A DNA stretch of 64,000 nucleotides from Massilia psychrophila (lineage in GTDB: Bacteria > Pseudomonadota > Gammaproteobacteria > Burkholderiales > Burkholderiaceae_D). The notes under the pieces are model-generated. The model did not search any database and was not told where the DNA came from. It was given only the letters and a program-made list of their open reading frames with translations. The position numbers were made by a program, and so were the translations under genes. Shown here one piece after another: positions 31,782 through 44,743 of the stretch (its first letter is position 1; each line of letters starts with the position of its first letter). The stretch is taken from the NCBI RefSeq assembly GCF_002760665.1, contig NZ_PDOB01000003.1:67434-131433 (forward strand). The letters are read 5' to 3'.

Positions 31782-31937
31782 GGTGACTCCTCAAGAAACG
31801 ATCTACCGAGAAGGGTTGAAAACAAATTGTACTAGTTAGGACTAATGTGCGCGCGCGGGTAAAGCGCAAAAAAATCCATTGGGCCGGCGGTGGCAATGCC
31901 AATTCGGTACGACGCCTTGTTGCGTTTATAATGTCCT

Positions 31938-32183
31938 GGTTTTGGTGCCCGCACGCGTGATCACGCGTGCAGTTAAACGGGAAACACCACGCTGCCGCGC
32001 CACCATCCGGCGCAGCGGTCCAGGGTGTGCTGCCCCCGCAACGGTAAACAAGCGTTGCCGCGATTGGCGACTGGCTGTCTCAATGACCACTGTGCGTTGC
32101 ATTGCACAGGAAGGTGGGGCGGTCCGACTTGCGAGCCCGGATACCGGCCAGGACAGGTGGAAGCGCCGGCGCCTTGGCGCCGG
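31938..32183 (+). ncRNA. Cobalamin (B12) riboswitch
   Basis: Conserved pieces appear in the right order: GGTGCCCGCA near 31944, CGGGAAACACC near 31978, GTGCTGCCCCCGCAACGGTAA near 32027-32047, and the B12 box AGCCCGGATACCGGCC at 32134-32149. A perfect 8-bp stem CCGGCGCC/GGCGCCGG at 32166-32183 follows and is a good candidate for the expression platform. It precedes a TonB-dependent receptor, so B12 should repress uptake when abundant. Confidence 0.93.
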
Positions 32184-32246
32184 TATCTTCCGTTGAATCC
32201 GGCTTGCGGGGACGCATGGCCGGAGACTCTTTCGAAGACCGACACC

Positions 32247-34247
32247 ATGATTTTTCCAGCTGCACTGCGCCACGCGCGGGCCACCCGACCGCTCGCCCTT
32301 GTTTCCTCTTTTTCCGCCGCTTCGGTCGCTTCGGCCATTTCTCTCCTTTTTTGCGTCCAGCCGGTTTACGCCCAGGACGCCGCCATGCCGTCGGTGCTGA
32401 TCAGCGGCGCGCGCTTTGCCAGCGTCCCTGAACTGGCGCCGATCGGCGCCACCGTCATCACCGCCGACGAGATCCGGCGCGCCGGCGTGTCCGACGTCAA
32501 CCAGGCGATCCGCAAGATCGGCGGCGTGTACGGCCGCCAGAGCCTCGACGCAAGCCCTGATTTTGCGCTCGATTTGCGCGGTTTCGGTTCGAACAGCAGC
32601 CAGAATATGGTCGTCGTGCTCGACGGCGTGCGCATGAGCGAAAACGAGTTGGCCAGCCCGGTGTTGTCGACCATTCCGATCGAGACGGTGGAACGGATCG
32701 AGATTATCCGCGGCGGCAGCTCGGTGCTGTACGGCGAAGGCGCCACCGGCGGCGTGATCCGGATTGTCACCAAGCGGTCTGCCAAGCGCGCGCGCCAAGG
32801 TTCGGTGTTTGCCGAGGCCGGCCAGTTCCGCCAGCACGACGTGCGCGCCTCGGTGGCGCAAAGCTGGGATGCGGTATCGCTCGACGCGTCGATCGGCAAC
32901 CAGGCCAGCGACAACTACCGCGCCAACAGCCGCTTTCGCCAGAGCGCCTTCAGCGGCGGCGCGCAGTGGGCATTAGGCGCAGGCCGCATCGGCGTGCGCA
33001 TCGACAGCGCGCGCCAGGATTCGCGCCTGCCGGGATCATTGTCCCTGGCGCAGTTCCTGGCCAACCCGCGGATAAGCCGCACGCCAGACGATTTCGGCTC
33101 GCTCGACTCCAATCGGATCAGCGCGTTCGTCGAGCAGCGCATCGGCGCCATCGACCTGGCGGCGGAACTGTCGCACCGCGAAAAAACCGTCAAGGGCCAT
33201 TATGTGTCCAGTTTCGGCATCACCGACGTCGCCTACGACAGCGAGCAGATCCAGTTCTCGCCGCGCCTGCGTCACCTCGCAAAGTTTGGCGGCGTCCTCA
33301 ATGAACTCGTCGCCGGCGTCGACCTGATTCGCTGGAACCGGGTCACGAAGTCGGATTTTTCAAAGGCCGACGCCAGCCAGGATTCGAAGGCGATCTACCT
33401 GCGTAACGAGATCCGCTGGGACCCGGCCCACAACGGCCGCTTGGCACTGGGTGTGCGGCGCGAGGTGTTCGACAAGGATTACACCGATCCACTGGCGCCG
33501 GTTGCGGAAACCAGCGCGCAGGCGCAGAACGCCTGGGAGGCGCAGGCCAGCTACAGCGTGCTGCCGCAGGTGAACCTGCATGCAAAAGCCGGCCAGAGCT
33601 ACCGCATGGCGAATGCCGACGAAAACAGCTTCCGTTCGTCGTCGACGGTGCTCAAGGCGCAAACCTCGCACGACCTCGAGCTGGGCGTGACGTTCGGTAC
33701 GGCAGGCGCCGGCCATACCATCAGCGCGCGCGTCTTCCGCCATCGCCTGGTCAACGAGATCTTCTACAACCCGACGCTGAACTACGGCACCAACACCAAC
33801 CTCGACCCGACCCGTCGCCAGGGTGTCGAAATCGACGCCGAAGCGCGCCTGGCCACGGACTGGCGCCTTACGGGCCACCTGCAGCACGTCGACGCCAGCT
33901 TCACGGGCGGTGCCAACGCCGGCCGCGAGATGGTGCTGGTGCCGAAAAACCTGGTGTCGGCGCGGCTGACGTGGGCACCGGCCAACGGTCACAGCGTTGA
34001 CGTCGGCGCGCAATGGGTCGACAGCCAGCGTTACGGCAGCGATTTTACCAACGCCTGCGCAGCCCGCATCCCGTCCTACACCACGCTCGATGCGCGCTAT
34101 GCCCGCACCATTGGCCGGTGGGAGCTGGCGGTATCAGGCCTGAACCTGGCCGACAAGCGCTACTTCAGCAATGCGTTCGCCTGCCAGGACGCGATTTACC
34201 CGTCCGACGGGCGCCAGCTCAAGCTTTCGGCGCGCTACGCTTTTTAA
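32247..34247 (+). CDS. btuB: TonB-dependent outer membrane receptor, probably cobalamin uptake
   Basis: 666 residues from ATG 32247. A signal peptide ends YAQDA (about residue 45). A TonB-box-like SVLISGAR, the plug domain (IRRAGVSDVNQAIRKIGGVYGR, ILRGGSSVLYG-type IIRGGSSVLYGEGATGGVI) and a beta-barrel ending in a terminal aromatic (ARYAF) follow. The substrate is assigned because of the B12 riboswitch directly upstream. The weak ribosome-binding site fits riboswitch control at translation. A decayed BtuF-like gene follows. Confidence 0.85.
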   Translation: MIFPAALRHARATRPLALVSSFSAASVASAISLLFCVQPVYAQDAAMPSVLISGARFASVPELAPIGATVITADEIRRAGVSDVNQAIRKIGGVYGRQSLDASPDFALDLRGFGSNSSQNMVVVLDGVRMSENELASPVLSTIPIETVERIEIIRGGSSVLYGEGATGGVIRIVTKRSAKRARQGSVFAEAGQFRQHDVRASVAQSWDAVSLDASIGNQASDNYRANSRFRQSAFSGGAQWALGAGRIGVRIDSARQDSRLPGSLSLAQFLANPRISRTPDDFGSLDSNRISAFVEQRIGAIDLAAELSHREKTVKGHYVSSFGITDVAYDSEQIQFSPRLRHLAKFGGVLNELVAGVDLIRWNRVTKSDFSKADASQDSKAIYLRNEIRWDPAHNGRLALGVRREVFDKDYTDPLAPVAETSAQAQNAWEAQASYSVLPQVNLHAKAGQSYRMANADENSFRSSSTVLKAQTSHDLELGVTFGTAGAGHTISARVFRHRLVNEIFYNPTLNYGTNTNLDPTRRQGVEIDAEARLATDWRLTGHLQHVDASFTGGANAGREMVLVPKNLVSARLTWAPANGHSVDVGAQWVDSQRYGSDFTNACAARIPSYTTLDARYARTIGRWELAVSGLNLADKRYFSNAFACQDAIYPSDGRQLKLSARYAF

Positions 34248-35732: not shown

Positions 35733-37026
35733 TTACGCCGGCCAGCGCAGCACAAACCGTGCCCCGCCGAGGGTGGATGGCTCGGCGGCGACCGCGCCGC
35801 CATGCTGCTCGAGCGCCTTGCGCGCAATCGACAGCCCCAGGCCGAAGCCGCCGGTCGCGCGGTCGCGGCTGCGGTCGAGCCGGTAAAGCGGCTCGAAAAT
35901 GCGCTCCCGTTCCTCCTGCGCAATACCGGGACCATCGTCCTCCACCACGATCTCGACCATGTCGACCTTGCGCGCCGCCATGGCGATGCGCGAGTGCGCA
36001 TATTTGCGGGCATTGCGCAGCACGTTGCCGATCGCCCGCATCAGCAGTCGCTGCTCGCCGCCGACGTTGCGCAGGGCGGGATCGATGTCGACTTCGACTT
36101 CGATCCCAGCCCCGGCCCCGGCCTGCCCATCGAGTAAGGCAAGGCATTCGGCCAGCGCCGGCGCCAGCGCGAACGGCGTCGACTGCACGGTTCGCTCGCT
36201 GCCGATCCTGGCCATTCCGAGCAGTTCTGCCACCAGCGCGTCGAACTCGGCCAAGTCGCCTTGCATGGCGTCGATACGCGCCGCCAGCGCGGCGTCGGGC
36301 GCGGCCAAGCGCAGCAGTTCGATCGCGAATTCAAGCCGCGCGATCGGCGTGCGCAGCTCGTGCGATACCGAATGGAGCAGGCTGGCCTGCGACGCGACCA
36401 GGCTTTCGATGCGCCCGGCCATGTGATTGATGCATTGCGCCAGCGGGTAGATGCTGGCGCCGCTGTTGACGTTGGTGCGCGAGGACAGCTTGCCGGCGCC
36501 GATCTCGTCCGCTACCGTCGACAAAGCCTGCAAGCCCTGCCAATGGGCGCGCGACCATAGCGCAATCGGAATCAGCAAGGCCAGCGCGACGATCGCGTAA
36601 CACAAAGCTTCCATCTGCAGCGCCACGGCAATGTCGATCGGCAGGTCGCGCGCGTGGATGACTTCATCCATGCTGCCGATGTACTTGTCGCCCTTGACGT
36701 CGACGCGCCGGAAGAACGCCTTGTTGGTGGCGTCGAGCACGACGTCGCCGCGCTCGAGGGCGCCCTGCTGGCGCGCTGGTGAGCGGCATCAGTTCGAGGC
36801 GAACCCGCGACACTTCGCGCACCTTGTTCAGGCGCACCAGCCATTCGTCGGCCGGGGCCTGGTCGACATAGTGTTCGAGCAGGAAAATTTGCGCCGCCGC
36901 CTGGCGCCGCGCGATCTCGGCCAAAGGGTCGCCGAACAGGCGGCTGATGGCAAAGTAAATGGCGAAGGTCGCCACGGTGATCGACAACATCACCAGCACG
37001 AAAAAACGGAAAAACAGGCGGTTCAC
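35733..37026 (-). pseudogene. RstB-like sensor histidine kinase, frameshifted
   Basis: The N-terminal part reads from a GTG at 37026 (VNRLFFRFFVLVMLSI, a membrane helix), through a periplasmic segment to LMPLTSA near 36775. The remainder continues in another frame (ALERGDVVLDATNK and on) to the stop at 35733. That part holds the second helix, HAMP, the H-box HSVSHELRTPIARL, and N/G boxes DDGPGI and GGFGLGLSI. The frames meet at a (GC)3 run, 36771-36776; one more GC would restore a continuous protein. No response regulator is adjacent: an IS element lies upstream. Confidence 0.75.
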
Positions 37027-37171
37027 GCCGCCATTCCGGCAGCGCACAAGGTCAACGACATAGTTTTCTCTATGGCCGCATTGGAGCGGAGCCAAGGCGG
37101 CACCGCGGGATTACATATTGATGACAATTGGGGGACAAATCGTAGGGGATTTTTCATTGGCAACCGGATAA

Positions 37172-38649
37172 GGTAACTATTCAGCCGCAGTGAGCCCCGC
37201 GATTAGTAGTTGTAAACAATGCTGGTTTGCCGCATCATTCCGCCATGCCACCGAAGCCACCCCGGCCCGATTTGACTCAACTGTCCGATACCGACAAGGA
37301 ACGGCTCATCGATGCGCTGTTCGCGCGCCTGGACGCGGTCGAAGCGAAGCTGGGCACGAACAGCGACAATTCGAGCAAGCCGCCATCGTCCGACGGGCTG
37401 GCCAAGAAGACGAGCTCGTTGCGCGAGTCGTCGGGCAAGAAGGTCGGAGGCCAGAAGGGCCGCAAGGGTACGACGCTCAGGCAAGCAGAGCAGCCCGATG
37501 AGGTCGTGAAGCATCCGTTGCCGGGACAGTGTGAACGCTGCCATGCAGCCTTGCCGACGCAGCACGCGCGGGTATGGGCTCGCCGCCAAGTAGTCGATGT
37601 GCCAACCGTCGCTTTCAATGTCGTCGAGCATCACGCTTTGGCCCTTACCTGCGCTTGCGGGCAATTTCATACGAGCTCTTTTCCAGGCGGCGTGAGCGAA
37701 TCGGTCCAATATGGTCCCAACGTGCGTGCACTGGGCGTGCATCTGACGCAAGGCCAGATGCTGCCGTATGCGCGTGCGGCCGAACTGATCCATGACGTGT
37801 ACGGCCTTGCGGTGTCGCCGGGTACGCTGGTGGCATGGGTGGCCGAGGTGAGCGCTGCCCTGCAGGAAACGGCGAACTTGATCGCCAGCCAACTGAGCGC
37901 GGCACAGCTGGTCCACGCCGACGAATCAGGTCTGCGCGTGGCCGGCAAACTCCATTGGCTGCACATCGCCGCCAATGAGACGCACACCTGGTACGGCATG
38001 CACGGCAAGCGCGGCATGGCCGCGATCGAAGAGCACGGCATTCTCGCCGGGCGCACTGGCGTACTCGTGCACGATTGCTGGGCCCCATATTGTCGCCTCG
38101 ACGACAGTACCCATGCCCTGTGCAATGCTCACCTCCTGCGCGAATTGTTGTACGCGAAAGAAACCACCGGCCAGCCGTGGGCGCAGGCGATGACCGACTT
38201 CCTGCTCAACGCAAACAAGTTATGCACGGCGGCGCGTGAGCGGCAAATCGTCTTCAGCGCCGACGACGTGCGCGCCTTGCGCACCGTCTACGACAACATC
38301 GTGCGGGAAGGCGAAAGGGCCAATCGCGTCGCCAGCGGGCGCGTCAAGCAATCCACCACGGTCAATCTGCTGCGCCGCTTCCGCCAGTACGGCGACGCCG
38401 TCTTGCGCTTCGTCGGCAACTTCGTCGTCCGATTTACCAACAACGCGGCCGAACGTGTAGTCCGAATGCCCAAGGTGAAACAGAAGGTTTCTGGCTGCTT
38501 CCGCACGCTCGATGGCGCCGAGTATTTCTGCGTCATCCGCTCCTGCCTCGATACCCTGCGCAAGCAAGGCCACAACATGCTTGCCGTGCTGCAGCAGGCC
38601 TTCGCCGGCACTCCTATTCAATCAGCTGCATAGCGGCTGAATAGTTACC
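37172..38649 (+). mobile_element. IS66-family element (single-transposase type), 1478 bp
   Basis: A 17-bp perfect terminal inverted repeat, GGTAACTATTCAGCCGC, lies at 37172-37188 and in reverse complement at 38633-38649. The interior holds one transposase gene and no tnpA/tnpB, as in the ISBst12-like subgroup. The flanks (CCGGATAA on the left, AGCAGTTT on the right) do not form the 8-bp target duplication usual for this family. Confidence 0.9.
37245..38633 (+). CDS. IS66-family transposase (TnpC type)
   Basis: 462 residues from ATG 37245 (a TTG at 37227 is an alternative). The order is a helical/leucine N-terminus, the NSSKPPSSDG motif, a basic linker (GGQKGRKG), the zinc-finger-like CERCHAALP and CACGQFH region, then a DDE core (HADESGLRV; HDCWAPY; NNAAERVVRMPKVKQKVSG). 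The C-terminal IS66 motif GCFRTLDGAEYFCVIRS completes it. It appears intact, so the element may still move. Confidence 0.95.
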   Translation: MPPKPPRPDLTQLSDTDKERLIDALFARLDAVEAKLGTNSDNSSKPPSSDGLAKKTSSLRESSGKKVGGQKGRKGTTLRQAEQPDEVVKHPLPGQCERCHAALPTQHARVWARRQVVDVPTVAFNVVEHHALALTCACGQFHTSSFPGGVSESVQYGPNVRALGVHLTQGQMLPYARAAELIHDVYGLAVSPGTLVAWVAEVSAALQETANLIASQLSAAQLVHADESGLRVAGKLHWLHIAANETHTWYGMHGKRGMAAIEEHGILAGRTGVLVHDCWAPYCRLDDSTHALCNAHLLRELLYAKETTGQPWAQAMTDFLLNANKLCTAARERQIVFSADDVRALRTVYDNIVREGERANRVASGRVKQSTTVNLLRRFRQYGDAVLRFVGNFVVRFTNNAAERVVRMPKVKQKVSGCFRTLDGAEYFCVIRSCLDTLRKQGHNMLAVLQQAFAGTPIQSAA

Positions 38650-38746
38650 AGCAGTTTTTCGTTCGGTTTTCCGCATCGGTATTTCCGAACGTTCTGCCCA
38701 AGGAAGTCGAATCCTTCCGAGATATGCGTCACGCGGGTTTTTTCTG

Positions 38747-38842
38747 TTGAGACGCTGCGCAGGCGGGGCACTTGCCGGCATTGAGCTCATCCACAGGATA
38801 CCCCAGGGCGAGTTTGCAATCGACAGTGCGTCGATTTTTCTG
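38747..38842 (+). pseudogene. IS6-family transposase, C-terminal remnant
   Basis: About 32 codons read RRCAGGALAGIELIHRIPQGEFAIDSA. This matches the C-terminal RSARCVLAGIELMHMIRKGQFAIDGA of the second, longer IS6 remnant at 42612-43204. The orientation is opposite to that copy, and both C-termini face the fdhD/ydeP genes between them. Everything upstream of this stretch has been lost. Confidence 0.65.
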
Positions 38843-38844
38843 CT

Positions 38845-39693
38845 TCAGCCTGGCTTAAAACGATGCGGATGCGAATATATTACATGCTTGTTTGCACGCA
38901 CGAAGCCGGCCAAAGACACACCTGCCTGGTCGGCCATGCGAACCGCAAGTGCGGTCGGCGCAGAAACGGCAGCCAAAACACTAATTCCAGCACGCGATAC
39001 CTTCTGTACCATCTCAAAACTTGCACGGCTGGTAATGACTGCAAAGCCCGAAGCGGGGCAGGTGCCGGCCCGGCTGAGCGCACCGATCAATTTATCAAGC
39101 GCGTTATGGCGACCGACATCTTCCCGTGCCAGCGCCACCCTTCCATCCCACGTAGCCCAGCCGGCAGCGTGCGCCCCGCCGGTTGCCGTGTGAATTAACT
39201 GAAGCTGGCACAAGCCGGCCATGGCCGTGTGCAACGCGCCAGCGTCGAGCATGCCGCCGGCGGGCACGGTCATTGGGTCGGGACTGAACTGCTCCAGGCT
39301 TTCGATGCCGCACAAACCGCAGCCGGTTTTACCAGTGCGCATGCGCCGCGCTTGCTTGATCCGGAACATGGCTGAAGCGGCGATGCGCATTTGAATTTCG
39401 ATGCCGCTAAGATGGCTAACGATGTCGATCTCGTAAATATCACTGGCACAGGCAACGAGCCGTTCGCTCACGCTAAATCCTATCGCAAAATCTTCCAGAT
39501 CCTGCGGCGTGGCGAGCATAACTGCCTGTGAAATACCATTGTAGACGAGTGCAACCGGTGTCTCTTCCACTACTTCTTCGCTGGTGACGTCCTGCACGCA
39601 AGTGCGTGGGCCGACGCACCAGCGCTGCACTGGCACGCGCCGCAGCGCTGGCGGCAATTCACGATCGTCTTGCACGGCGTCGTTCGGCGCCAT
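38845..39693 (-). CDS. fdhD: Formate dehydrogenase accessory sulfurtransferase FdhD
   Basis: 282 residues from ATG 39693. The functional CxxC motif is visible in GKTGCGLCGIES near residue 125, and later GGAHAAGWATWDG, AREDVGRHNALDKLIG and VITSRASFEMVQK blocks are FdhD signatures. It carries sulfur from IscS to the molybdenum cofactor of formate-dehydrogenase-type enzymes; a substrate enzyme of that class is encoded 55 bp upstream. An in-frame start further upstream would overlap that gene. Base composition is more AT-rich than the core genes. Confidence 0.93.
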   Translation of the reverse strand: MAPNDAVQDDRELPPALRRVPVQRWCVGPRTCVQDVTSEEVVEETPVALVYNGISQAVMLATPQDLEDFAIGFSVSERLVACASDIYEIDIVSHLSGIEIQMRIAASAMFRIKQARRMRTGKTGCGLCGIESLEQFSPDPMTVPAGGMLDAGALHTAMAGLCQLQLIHTATGGAHAAGWATWDGRVALAREDVGRHNALDKLIGALSRAGTCPASGFAVITSRASFEMVQKVSRAGISVLAAVSAPTALAVRMADQAGVSLAGFVRANKHVIYSHPHRFKPG

Positions 39694-39748
39694 GTTCGTC
39701 CGCTCGGGGAATGCATCGAAAGCATCTTCACGCACACCCGGCTCCGGT

Positions 39749-42067
39749 TCAGACCCTAGCGGCAGCTGCCGCCGCAACGGATCGGCTATCGAGCCGCAAC
39801 TGCACTTCAATGGCTTTTGCGGCTGGCACCATGCTCGTTTCGGCATGGTGCCAAAGCGGAATCAAGGGATTGCATTCGGGGTAATAACCGGCAATGCAAC
39901 CGAGCGGAATATCGTACGGCGTAATACGCAAACCAGAAACGCTTCGCGCGACGCCGTCGTCAGACGGCGTGCTGACTGTTACCAAGTCGCCTTCAGCCAA
40001 GGCCAGGCGGGTCATGTCATGACGCGATATGAACAGCACCATGCGCGTGCCGTAGACGCCGCGAAAACGATCATCGTTATTATAGATGGTAGTGTTGAAC
40101 TGACCATCGGTGCGCACGGTAAACAGACGCAAGGTGTCGGGCGCGGGGCGCATGTCCGGGTTTGCGTCCAGCGCGGTTGGGACGATGAAGTTTGCTTTGC
40201 CAGTGTCGGTTTTCCAAATCCGTTCGGACGCGGCAACTGGCTTGCGAAAACCGCCAGGCTGCCACATTCTCGCATTAAAGTCGCGAAAAATTTCGGGATA
40301 AGTGGCTTCAATTGCCGTACGTACCAGGCCATAGTCGGCGCACCAGGCGTCCCAATCGACACGCGGATTAGGGTCCAGCGTCGCTTTGGCAATGCCGGCA
40401 ATAATTGCCGGCTCTGATAGCAGCTGCTTGCTGGCAGGCTCGGCTCTTCCGCGCGAGCCATGGATGCAGGCGGTGCTATCCTCGATCGACACCGATTGCT
40501 CGATGCCGTTCTGGCGATCAATCTCGATGCGGCCAAGGCAGGGTAATATAAAGGACACTTGGCCATGGATCAAGTGACTGCGGTTGAGCTTGGTTGATAT
40601 CTGCACCGTCAGGCGCATGTCGCGCCAGGCTTTTTCCATTAGAACGGTCTCAGGCACTGCGCGTATGAAGTTACCACCCAGGCTGACAAACGCTTTTACC
40701 TTTTTCTCGAGAATGCCCTGACAAGCTTCGACCGTATTCATGCCTTTTTTACGCGGCGGCGCAAAATTGTATAATTCGGCCAGTTTGTCCAGCGGCGCCA
40801 GTTCTGGTTTTTCGGTAATGCCGACAGTGCGTTGGCCTTGAACGTTCGAATGTCCACGCACCGGACAGATGCCTGCCCCGCTCTTGCCGATATTGCCACG
40901 CAAGAGCAATAGATTCGACAGCATCTGCACATTCTGCACGCCGTTTCGATGCTGCGTCAGGCCCATACCGTAGACGCCGATTACGGCATCCGCTTTTGCG
41001 TAGATGGCGGCAGCTTCCTCAAGCGATGCGCGTGCGAGACCAGACTCGCGTTCGATGTCATCCCAGCGATAGGACCGGGTAGCCGCCGCAAAAGCGACGA
41101 AGCCATGGGTGTGCTGCGTTAAAAATGCCTGGTCCAATAAGCGCGCGGTACCTGCTGCAAGCGCTGCATCATCGGCCTCAATCAAACTTTTGCAGATGCC
41201 CATGATGGCTGCGATGTCGCCGCCTGCCTTCAGTTGATGGTAATGGGTGCTGATAATGGTTTCATCGCCACTCAGCATTTCGCCTGGCGACTGTGGATTG
41301 ACGAAGCTGACCAAGCCACGTTCGCGCAGTGGATTGAATGTAATAATCGGCACACCGCGCTTGCGCGCCTCCTGAAGCTGATGCAACATGCGCGGACTGT
41401 TGGTACCGACATTTTGGCCGAAAAATAAAACACAGTCGGTCTTTTCGAAATCTTCAATGAGGACAGTGCCAACACCACTCCCAATTGTCGTCGGCAAGGC
41501 AACCGACGTGCTCTCATGGCACATATTGGAACTGTCGGGCAGATTGTTCGAGCCGTACATACGCACCATCAGCTGATACAGATACGATGTTTCAAGCGAG
41601 GCGCGCCCGGAGCTGTAGAACACGACCTCCTGCGCATTCAAGCGCTTTAGCTCGGCGCCGATTTCCGCGAACGCCGCACCCCAGGTAATTTCCAGATATT
41701 TGTTGCTATCAGCATCCCAGCGCATCGGCGCGGTTAACCGGCCAGCGGCCTCCAGCGCATGGTCGCTCCAGCGTTCCAGTTCGGCCACCGTGTGCTGCTC
41801 AAAAAATGCAGGTGGCACGCGTTTGCTGGTGACCTCCCAAGCAGTAGCCTTGGCGCCGCTTTCACAAAATTCAAAAGGATGCGGATTAGCTGGCTTTGCC
41901 CAAGCGCAGCTGACGCAAGCGTAGCCGTTTGCCTTGTTTTGCAAATTGAGCAAATAGCTGCCTTTTAGAATGACATGTTCGTTAAACAAGCTAGACGCGA
42001 CTTTACGTACCGAACCCCAGCCGCCCGAAGGTGCGGTATTCGGCTTGATTGTTAACCGGTCACTCAT
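39749..42067 (-). CDS. FdhF/YdeP-family molybdopterin oxidoreductase
   Basis: 772 residues, a molybdopterin-dependent oxidoreductase of the YdeP group. The N-terminus has only a reduced cysteine set (YACVSCAWAKP), unlike the four-Cys cluster of classical FdhF. The likely Mo-ligand cysteine is in NMCHESTSVALP (near residue 182). FNPLRERGLVSF, GNIGKSGAGICPVRGHSNVQG and a C-terminal dinucleotide-binding domain (LFTVRTDGQFNTTIYN) follow. In E. coli YdeP is linked to acid resistance; its reaction is unknown. Downstream fdhD fits its maturation. Confidence 0.9.
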   Translation of the reverse strand: MSDRLTIKPNTAPSGGWGSVRKVASSLFNEHVILKGSYLLNLQNKANGYACVSCAWAKPANPHPFEFCESGAKATAWEVTSKRVPPAFFEQHTVAELERWSDHALEAAGRLTAPMRWDADSNKYLEITWGAAFAEIGAELKRLNAQEVVFYSSGRASLETSYLYQLMVRMYGSNNLPDSSNMCHESTSVALPTTIGSGVGTVLIEDFEKTDCVLFFGQNVGTNSPRMLHQLQEARKRGVPIITFNPLRERGLVSFVNPQSPGEMLSGDETIISTHYHQLKAGGDIAAIMGICKSLIEADDAALAAGTARLLDQAFLTQHTHGFVAFAAATRSYRWDDIERESGLARASLEEAAAIYAKADAVIGVYGMGLTQHRNGVQNVQMLSNLLLLRGNIGKSGAGICPVRGHSNVQGQRTVGITEKPELAPLDKLAELYNFAPPRKKGMNTVEACQGILEKKVKAFVSLGGNFIRAVPETVLMEKAWRDMRLTVQISTKLNRSHLIHGQVSFILPCLGRIEIDRQNGIEQSVSIEDSTACIHGSRGRAEPASKQLLSEPAIIAGIAKATLDPNPRVDWDAWCADYGLVRTAIEATYPEIFRDFNARMWQPGGFRKPVAASERIWKTDTGKANFIVPTALDANPDMRPAPDTLRLFTVRTDGQFNTTIYNNDDRFRGVYGTRMVLFISRHDMTRLALAEGDLVTVSTPSDDGVARSVSGLRITPYDIPLGCIAGYYPECNPLIPLWHHAETSMVPAAKAIEVQLRLDSRSVAAAAAARV

Positions 42068-42123
42068 AAGATTAGTCTTTCAATAAAGAACGACGTCAGC
42101 ACCCTTGATTTTGACAGTTGCCT

Positions 42124-42532
42124 CATTTAAGTATTTTAATTTATCAATTATTTCTAATTTTCAACGCGATGAAATGACACGTTTTATTAAAATAATTACT
42201 TTCAGCCAAATGTCGAACTTTGGAATACTGCCTTGTAAACTATTAAACCGCGCTAAGTTGGGACGCGACAAACACAAAATATTGTTCATGCCAGAGCCAG
42301 TATAGGAGAATTGAGGTGTCGCGTATGTTTAATAGCGCACATCGAGTGCGGTTACGCCCAGGATACTGTCAACTTCTGGAGTGTTGTTGCAAAGATATGG
42401 ACCACCCGGCTTTGGCAATTGGTGCAAATAAATATTTAAAATTATTCATTATTTTTATTGGTTAACGCCATGTAATTGCACGTTTTTCTATTAAAAATCA
42501 ATCACTTACAACCAATTTTCGAACTTCAGGTG
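42124..42532. repeat. Pair of diverged ~108-bp direct repeats
   Basis: Copy 1 spans about 42124-42232 and copy 2 about 42426-42532, roughly 300 bp apart and in the same orientation. Aligned by eye they share an AT-rich first half, a central ACGTTTT block and an end TCGAACTT. Boundaries are approximate. They could be duplicated regulatory DNA or ends of a lost element. Confidence 0.55.
42316..42465 (+). CDS. Possible small ORF, 49 residues, doubtful
   Basis: A GTG at 42316 (or ATG 42325) follows AGGAGAATTGAG and opens a reading to TAA 42463-42465. It carries a CCC cysteine cluster and a hydrophobic end (LKLFIIFIG). No family is recognised, and the AT-rich repeat context makes chance likely. 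Confidence 0.2.
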   Translation: MSRMFNSAHRVRLRPGYCQLLECCCKDMDHPALAIGANKYLKLFIIFIG

Positions 42533-42611
42533 CCAAGGCCCGGGCTTTGTCGCGTTGTTGACAACTACCGTTGATCGAAAAATGAGATCCCCTCGAAAGG
42601 GTACAGCGCCC

Positions 42612-43204
42612 TCAAACTGGACGGACCTGTCCTGCCAGCGCATAAAATTGGTCGGCGAACGAGGTCGTATCTGCGCCATCGATGGCGAACTGGCCCTTGC
42701 GGATCATGTGCATGAGCTCGATGCCGGCAAGCACGCAGCGAGCAGAGCGAAATGATTTGAAGTTGAGCATCGGCCTGGTGACCCGCTTAATGGCGCGGTG
42801 ATCTTGCTCGACAATGTTGTTGAGGTATTTGACCTGGCGCACCACGATCGGCACGTCACGTCCGGCGTTGATCGCATCAATGGCGGCCTTGTTAGCGCCG
42901 CTCTTATCCATCACGACTTTCTCGGGATCGCCATTGGTTTGCATGGTCTTGTCGAAGAAACGCTTCGCCGCGACCATGTCGCGCTGTGCGGTCAGCAAAA
43001 AATCAACGGTTGGCCCTGCTTGTCGACAGCGCGGTAGAGGTATTTCCAGACACCTTTGACCTTGATGTAGGTCTCATCCATGCGCCAGCTGGCCCCGACC
43101 GGGCGCTTGTGTTTGCGGGCCGTCTTCTCGATGAGCGGCAAGAACCGGATCGCCCATCGGTTGATTGATGAGTGGTCTACAGACACGCCGCGCTCTGCCA
43201 TCAT
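42612..43204 (-). pseudogene. IS6-family transposase, 5'-truncated and frameshifted
   Basis: The N-terminal segment reads MMAERGVSVDHSSINRWAIRF, then WRMDETYIKVKGVWKYLYRAVDKQG, an IS6 DDE domain containing the first Asp. The frame is lost near 43010-43020 (one base missing before ACCGTTGAT). It resumes as TVDFLLTAQRDMVAAKRFF, AIKRVTRPMLNFKSF and the C-terminal RSARCVLAGIELMH. About 35-40 N-terminal residues are missing where the sequence abuts an IS66 tnpA fragment at 43205. Inactive. Confidence 0.85.
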
Positions 43205-43505
43205 TTTTCATGCCGTGACCAAGGTCGAGGCGAACTGCCAGCGCCACACCGACCGACGCAAGCTGGCGCATCGATTGCGCTTCGGGCGTAGCTGCCATCA
43301 CGCCGACGTCGATGAAACCTGCTGCCGGCGTCGCGTCAACTGTCCCTGCCAACTTCGTGCGCCAGCGGTAGAGCGCGGCCTCCGACACCAGCTCTGCCTG
43401 GCAGAACGGCTTGATTTGCTTAGCGCTGGCAGCAAACCGGGCCAGCCGCTGGCACCATTCCAATTCCTTGCGCGATCGTCTTACGAGCATTGCATGCATG
43501 GTCAA
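43205..43505 (-). pseudogene. IS66-type TnpA (accessory protein) fragment
   Basis: Reading from 43505: ELEWCQRLARFAASAKQIKPFCQAELVSEAALYRWRTKLAG, then GFIDVGVMA and VGVALAVRLDLGHG. This resembles the small IS66 accessory protein with its W-x-R-R..FC..E..S..A.YRWR signature. It breaks off at the junction with the IS6 remnant. The intact IS66 copy in this window has no tnpA, so this comes from a different element. Confidence 0.65.
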
Positions 43506-43592
43506 TCTCTATCGTGTTGAACATGGATGAGATTGTGCCGTCGCGGACGTTTGTCGGATATAACGCCGCTGGCTTACCGCTTACGCGCCGCT

Positions 43593-43799
43593 GTGCCAAT
43601 ACGTTTCAAGATCAGTTCGTCAACAAATATTGATGACATCGTCCGGCTCGCCTTGCCGGGTGTGAAGCTCACGCACATGGTGCAGGTGCAGGTGCCGGTG
43701 CGACTAAACACGCACTACTTCAGCCTGGAAAACAAGGGCATGCTATTCGAGGCGATGCTGAAAACGCAAACGCTGACCCTGGATGACCTGAAGGTCTAA
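43593..43799 (+). pseudogene. Probable C-terminal remnant of type VI secretion protein TssK
   Basis: The stretch RFKISSSTNIDDIVRLALPGVKLTHMV, then VPVRLNTHYFSLENKGMLFEAMLKTQTLTL, follows the pattern of the TssK C-terminus (FKIG...LV..ALPGV.L.H....IPV....YF.L...G..WE.). Only about 68 residues of a ~440-residue protein remain and the last strand is short. No other T6SS gene is visible. The identification is by remembered family pattern and needs a profile search. Confidence 0.5.
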
Positions 43800-44058
43800 C
43801 TTTTTTGCCTTGCGCAGTAATCGAGTTGATTGCTTGGACAGGAGGGCGGCAATGCAACATGAAGGACGCCGGGGGGATACGCATGGGGGGTAAAACCGAC
43901 CATGGCGGGAAGGGCGCAAAGCATGAGGGGCGGGCATACGCGTATCACGACGATGTGACGGAATGCGGCGCGCTTGGTCGTCTCGCCGTAGGCCGCCGGG
44001 CGGCCTACGTATGCGGGCAAAAACTCAGATTCTATTTTTAATCGACAGCGCTAAAAAT
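43800..44058. other. Intergenic stretch with a perfect hairpin downstream of sodB
   Basis: 259 bp between the tssK-like remnant and the sodB stop. GTAGGCCGC and GCGGCCTAC (43988-44008) form a perfect 9-bp stem with a 3-base loop but no T-run. A reading with ATG 43859 exists on the plus strand but is Gly-rich and unfamiliar, and I do not call it. Confidence 0.4.
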
Positions 44059-44637
44059 TCAAGCGGCGCAGGCGTTGACTTCTTCCCAGTTAACCAGGCC
44101 CCAGAACGATTCAACATACTTGGCGCGGGCGTTGCGGTAGTCGATATAGTAAGCGTGCTCCCAGACGTCGCACGTCAGCAGCGGCTTGTCGCCGGTGGTC
44201 AAAGGGCAGCCGGCATTCGAGGTGTTGACGATGTCGACGCCGCCGTCGGCTTTTTGCACCAGCCAGGTCCAGCCGGAGCCGAAGTTGCCCAGGCACGACT
44301 TGGTGAATTCTTCCTTGAACTTGTCGAACGAACCCCACTTGGCGTTGATCGCGTCAGCTACTTTTCCGCTCGGGACGCCGCCGCCGGCCGGCTTCATGCC
44401 GTTCCAGTAGAAGGTGTGGTTCCATACCTGCGCCGCGTTGTTGAAAATGCCGCCGGACGATTTCTTGATGATCTCTTCGAGCGGCAGGTTGTCGAACTCG
44501 GTGCCCTTGATCAGGTTGTTCAAGTTGGTCACGTAGGTGGCGTGGTGCTTACCGTAGTGGAATTCCAGCGTTTCTTTGGAGATGTGCGGCGCCAGGGCGT
44601 CTATCGCGTACGGCAGGGGTGGCAGTGTATGTTCCAT
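44059..44637 (-). CDS. sodB: Superoxide dismutase [Fe]
   Basis: 192 residues from ATG 44637. Metal-ligand contexts are all present: [22 protein letters not shown] and [12 protein letters not shown], with FGSGWTWLV between. Length and the [10 protein letters not shown] pattern are those of SodB (iron type). It removes cytosolic superoxide. It follows xseA on the same strand, but 106 bp away, probably with its own promoter. Confidence 0.95.
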
Positions 44638-44743
44638 ATCTTGTCCTTTGGTCGATTGAAAAGCGTTAATCACTCACAAACAGATTCTATTGTAAAACGG
44701 ATGCCGTTTCGTTGCTGATTTGTCTTGCGAACGACGTTGGCGC

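Follow-up and report, generated by a model that had tools for sequence, protein, structure and literature searches.

How a gene for a YdeP-type molybdoenzyme and its neighbour fdhD came to lie between two facing remnants of IS6-family elements, and whether a single transposon could have brought them there, are the questions that this locus raises. The earlier note had answered them with a decayed IS6-type pseudo-compound transposon. Our analysis considered the window, i.e., the whole stretch of 64,000 nucleotides (G000:C3:67434-131433), taken from a draft genome of 4.73 Mb in 113 contigs that is rated as 100% complete. The named homologues of ydeP indicate the Massilia/Duganella/Rugamonas group of the Oxalobacteraceae, and the genus sample comprised five genomes, four of which (including G002 and G003) are genus mates of the source. 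The pieces of the locus, whose order can be read directly along the DNA, are as follows:

35733..37095, minus strand: histidine kinase of the ancestral two-component locus (HisKA, HATPase_c), broken
37172..38649, plus strand: complete IS66-family element with one transposase ORF (37227-38633) and 17-bp perfect terminal repeats
38650..38756, minus strand: scrap of a group II intron reverse transcriptase/maturase gene (ltrA), 35 codons (TIGR04416, E=2.6e-5)
38753..38823, plus strand: scrap from the C-terminal part of an IS6-family transposase gene, lacking any IS end; 54/71 positions match the right copy
38845..39693, minus strand: fdhD, intact (TIGR00129, PF02634; E. coli-type FdhD 4pde, E=1e-61)
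39749..42067, minus strand: ydeP-like gene for an FdhF/YdeP oxidoreductase, intact, 772 aa (TIGR01701)
42541..43204, minus strand: remnant of an IS6-family element that retains its right end but not the first ~170 bp on the left; a 1-bp deletion interrupts its ORF
43209..43584, minus strand: left end of a second, different IS66-family element, with terminal repeat and tnpA (NF047593)
43587..43799, plus strand: C-terminal fragment of the type VI secretion gene tssK (TIGR03353/PF05936)
44059..44673, minus strand: sodB, the conserved right flank of the replaced block

The identity of the two framed genes, claimed earlier as fdhD and a YdeP-type molybdoenzyme gene, is well founded. The fdhD product scores 208.2 bits against the FdhD sulfurtransferase model TIGR00129 (cut-off 140.9) and keeps the CGxCG motif, its CGLCG aligning with the CGVCG of E. 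coli FdhD. The YdeP product scores 938 bits against the FdhF/YdeP family model TIGR01701 (cut-off 582) over residues 14-757, and its Cys183 occupies the selenocysteine position of formate dehydrogenases (FDHs). With NF007406, the model for the acid-resistance YdeP of E. coli, it reaches only 751.7 bits against a cut-off of 1473. The fdhD reading frame is open from 39846, but comparison with the homologue in G018 makes a start at 39693 likelier, and ydeP and fdhD therefore do not overlap. We also considered that fdhD might have lost its C-terminus to the IS6 scrap; this was rejected, as the gene ends much like the G018 homologue.

The surroundings of the pair yielded several side observations. 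Upstream of ydeP lies a diverged, AT-rich direct repeat (42110-42220 and 42411-42526, 84/116 identical), which occurs nowhere else in the genome at the DNA level and is possibly a duplicated upstream region; the ydeP upstream sequence had no matches in other Oxalobacteraceae. In G021 and G011 a gene for a catalase-like protein adjoins ydeP (L078:7125-8234; L012:2772-3607), an adjacency that might reflect a functional link, where the catalase-like call comes from a Pfam run on the G021 protein only, with a score just under the cut-off. No structured RNA exceeded the Rfam thresholds within the locus, and promoter and terminator scans of it gave results near chance level. Elsewhere in the window, a cobalamin riboswitch (31926-32166, 77.6 bits) lies upstream of the ORF of a TonB-type receptor (32025-34247).

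Two IS6 remnants do face inward around the pair, the left one on the plus and the right one on the minus strand, and both are dead, as had been claimed. The right remnant, placed earlier at 42612-43204, is a real IS6 piece of greater extent, reaching its right terminal repeat (IRR) at about 42541, while IRL was lost with the first ~170 bp; two copies at other places in the genome match it at about 95% identity. The left remnant, given as 38747-38842, is likewise real, as its match lies well above chance (E about 3e-8 against the whole genome), but it is shorter (38753-38823) and includes no IS end. To call the two the same IS6 was too strong. In these 71 nt the left scrap is 70-76% identical to any IS6 copy compared, with 17 mismatches to the right copy and 18-21 to seven others, whereas those seven differ from the right copy at only 4-9 positions.

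In IS6 pseudo-compound transposons the copies belong to one IS and lie in direct repeat, which follows from their cointegrate mechanism, and an inverted pair would halt at the cointegrate stage (PMC7986276). The locus resembles such a transposon in having genes between two IS6-family remnants, and differs from it in that the copies are inverted, non-identical and truncated, with terminal repeats reduced to the IRR of the right copy. As such transposons consist of direct repeats of one IS, the pseudo-compound reading fails, and the unequal divergence of the two remnants is not what joint deposition would lead one to expect. That a decayed transposon of this kind delivered the pair in one step, though the pair is flanked by IS6 pieces and looks acquired, is thus very improbable, since apart from the inversion (PMC7986276), the divergence of the left scrap and its lack of an end, the foreign segment continues beyond both IS6 pieces. 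Intramolecular transposition of IS6 in trans does yield inverted IS copies (PMC7986276), and could in principle have inverted a segment of resident genes between them. Near-identical copies, each with its ends, would then be expected, and neither holds here; moreover, the relatives lack ydeP-fdhD at this place in either orientation, so that we give this route hardly any credence. The genome holds 25 IS6 matches, and with IS6 pieces so common, a second one within a field of debris is unremarkable. The IS6 remnants are passengers of this debris and not the ends of one transposon.

Several other mobile pieces had been overlooked earlier, namely the complete IS66, the ltrA scrap, the left end of the second IS66 and the tssK fragment. 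The complete element (37172-38649) belongs to the IS66 family, with 290.5 bits against the TnpC model NF033517 (cut-off 180) together with terminal inverted repeats, and it is this element, not an IS6, that forms the left border of the foreign segment. Members of the IS66 family produce an 8-bp target duplication. None is seen here, as the 8-bp flanks (ccggataa and agcagttt) differ, and at least one flank has therefore probably been replaced since insertion; as the duplication is expected to be missing in such a case, family membership is not in doubt. Directly to the right of the IS66 follows the ltrA scrap, which matches plasmid ltrA genes by blastn (78-80%, E=2e-7). A Pfam match of its 35 residues to HLH (E=0.12) was set aside as a chance match, the NCBIfam model and the plasmid ltrA genes having settled its identity. 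On the other side, the second IS66 was inserted in tssK and is cut by the IS6 junction; a larger copy on contig C5, which has both ends, matches what is left of it at 87.5% identity. The tssK fragment shows 80% DNA identity to a tssK of G002, a genus mate. The genome itself has three full-length tssK genes elsewhere (G000:C33, C6 and C9), and the scrap is closest to a further one, found in G002.

An empty site in close relatives had been proposed as a check, and the site proved not to be empty. In G001, G014 and G021, xseA and sodB are clustered with the genes for a response regulator, a DUF protein, MipA and (if one was found) a lipoprotein, followed by the histidine kinase gene and dsbA; G004 presents the same order from xseA to the histidine kinase, up to the edge of the stretch read, and G002 and G003 carry pieces of the same block on split contigs. 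Some relatives have an extra hemerythrin or GGDEF/EAL gene beside sodB. Neither ydeP nor fdhD occurs at this site in G001, G004, G014 or G021, nor in the split-contig genomes G002 and G003. The earlier note had named, as evidence against its own reading, the pair at this same place in all relatives without IS remnants; this was not found, the pair being absent here from every relative examined. Simple insertion at an empty site was rejected all the same, as a different gene block stands there in relatives. Homology to them breaks off near 37151, with 20 bp left to the IS66, and is found again from about 44063, where sodB ends. The block replaced between these points is made up of the lipoprotein, MipA, DUF and response regulator genes, in some relatives with the GGDEF/EAL gene.

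Two genes of this block are missing from the genome as a whole. The response regulator is 86-100% identical in four genus mates, and its best match in this genome reaches only 42%; MipA is present in the four genus mates and in G014, and was not found in this genome in a search with the relatives as control. The histidine kinase, in turn, stayed behind with a frame-shifting deletion of 20 bp near 36778, seen by tblastn in two frames and in a DNA alignment with three intact orthologues, whereas it is uninterrupted in relatives where it was read. Given the length of the deletion, a sequencing error is unlikely. Relatives share an intergenic stretch between the kinase gene and the lipoprotein-MipA genes that diverge from it, in which the words TTTGTC/TTGTCA recur (window 37110-37151; L069:18297-18337; L070 upstream of the kinase). 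The window has kept this stretch despite the loss of the regulator, which perhaps bound there.

As the left joint falls at a repeated element, one should also consider that it was made by the assembly. Relatives of the IS66 lie at several contig ends, and the copy at 37172-38649 lacks a target duplication; against this, the contig-end copies are 93-98% identical to the window copy and not identical, the right border at sodB lies in unique DNA, and neither the regulator nor MipA turns up anywhere in the assembly. An assembly error at this joint thus has a very low probability.

That the framed genes and their flanks are AT-rich, as noted earlier, is confirmed by a GC content of 0.47 in the 42-43 kb bin, compared with 0.60-0.70 across most of the window, and by the GC content at third codon positions (GC3). 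For ydeP and fdhD it amounts to 0.62 and 0.63, while most window genes lie at 0.80-0.88 and eight Oxalobacteraceae orthologues of ydeP at 0.86-0.94. Codon adaptation to the window background is likewise low (0.49 for ydeP and 0.47 for fdhD, against a mean of 0.65, sd 0.09), although this background includes mechanically chosen ORFs, some of which may not be genes, and GC3 should therefore be considered the stronger measure. The codon-usage and phylogeny check proposed earlier thus gave a composition foreign to this genome, but a YdeP that stays within its own group: in the protein tree it falls among Massilia/Duganella/Rugamonas homologues (support 96/84), and its terminal branch is of normal length. 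In G018 (L077) and Massilia sp. 9I (L106), ydeP is followed by fdhD in the same order as in the window, and the three FdhDs form one clade (97/97). In these pairs YdeP is 71-72% and FdhD 57% identical to the window proteins; they differ from the window pair in their GC3 of 0.89 against 0.62, their other locations and their lack of framing IS6 remnants. Plasmid DNA matched the pair at about 66-68% at best among the matches listed, and a close plasmid donor at the DNA level was accordingly rejected.

The position of YdeP within the family's homologues and the presence of a ydeP in genus mate G003 might suggest that the genus inherited the pair from its ancestor and that the relatives lost it, so that only the debris is new. 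The ydeP of G003 (70% identical), however, lies elsewhere and is not accompanied by fdhD, and the three other genus mates carry no ydeP; with the GC3 of 0.62 against 0.86-0.94 in orthologues, we consider an ancestral pair improbable. On the best reading, the pair would have been imported from an Oxalobacteraceae-type donor of lower GC3, although relaxed mutation pressure could account for part of the low GC3 in place of the donor.

Taken together, we are fairly confident that an intact, acquired ydeP-fdhD pair sits at 37172-44058 of the window (~6.9 kb) amid a patchwork of mobile-element pieces unrelated to one another, and that this patchwork replaced a conserved block between the histidine kinase and sodB. 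Of the earlier reading, the imported cargo within mobile debris stands, given the absence of the pair here in every relative examined, its foreign composition and the debris around it; the IS6 transposon falls away, and the replacement had not been foreseen. The feature is real and of known kinds: debris of mobile elements forms a patchwork, the FdhF/YdeP-FdhD pair within it is acquired, and a deletion deprived a sensor kinase of its regulator. It may have arisen stepwise, as insertion sequences entered, DNA next to them was deleted and recombination took place; the left IS66, which lacks a target duplication, would be one of the joints. Nested insertions would have come first, with an IS66 entering tssK, the IS6 junction cutting that IS66 and the left IS66 abutting the maturase debris, while later deletions and recombination would have carried the pair into the gap between the kinase and sodB and removed the resident block. 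The kinase would have decayed after the loss of its regulator; this sequence of events is probable, but its order, like that of the other steps, is unproven, as no intermediate genome was found among those compared.

As to function, the nearest studied system is PP_0256-PP_0257 of Pseudomonas putida, where PP_0256 and fdhD are transcribed together and a strain lacking both tolerates formate much less well (PMC10308882). In both cases the gene for a soluble FdhF/YdeP-family enzyme adjoins fdhD on the same strand, and the window genes, too, are likely to form one transcript. The parallel is drawn from the description of the P. putida pair, around which mobile debris is not mentioned. If the homologous pair is a guide, FdhD would supply sulfur for the molybdenum cofactor in the YdeP-type enzyme, and formate oxidation by this enzyme would help the cell to tolerate formate. 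For E. coli YdeP the link is with acid stress, which makes formate oxidation uncertain for the window protein. The two share the broad family TIGR01701, while the window YdeP is not an acid-resistance equivalog by NF007406. By analogy with P. putida, we lean slightly towards an enzyme that oxidises formate, and leave as the alternative that, like its E. coli counterpart, it serves under acid or redox stress. A second FdhD is encoded on contig C8, with 21% identity to the linked one. We regard it as doubtful that the linked FdhD matures YdeP alone, in a role separate from that of the other FdhD of the host, which would make the pair a module that works on arrival in a new host.

For other loci, it should be considered that a pair of IS remnants facing each other does not necessarily mark the two ends of a single transposon, and that orientation, relative divergence and IS ends should be checked first. 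Here, mobile-element turnover removed a response regulator, left a broken, partnerless sensor kinase and brought in a metabolic gene pair, of which this locus is a clear natural example, and the ydeP-fdhD pair of the Oxalobacteraceae presents itself as a testable candidate for a formate-tolerance module.
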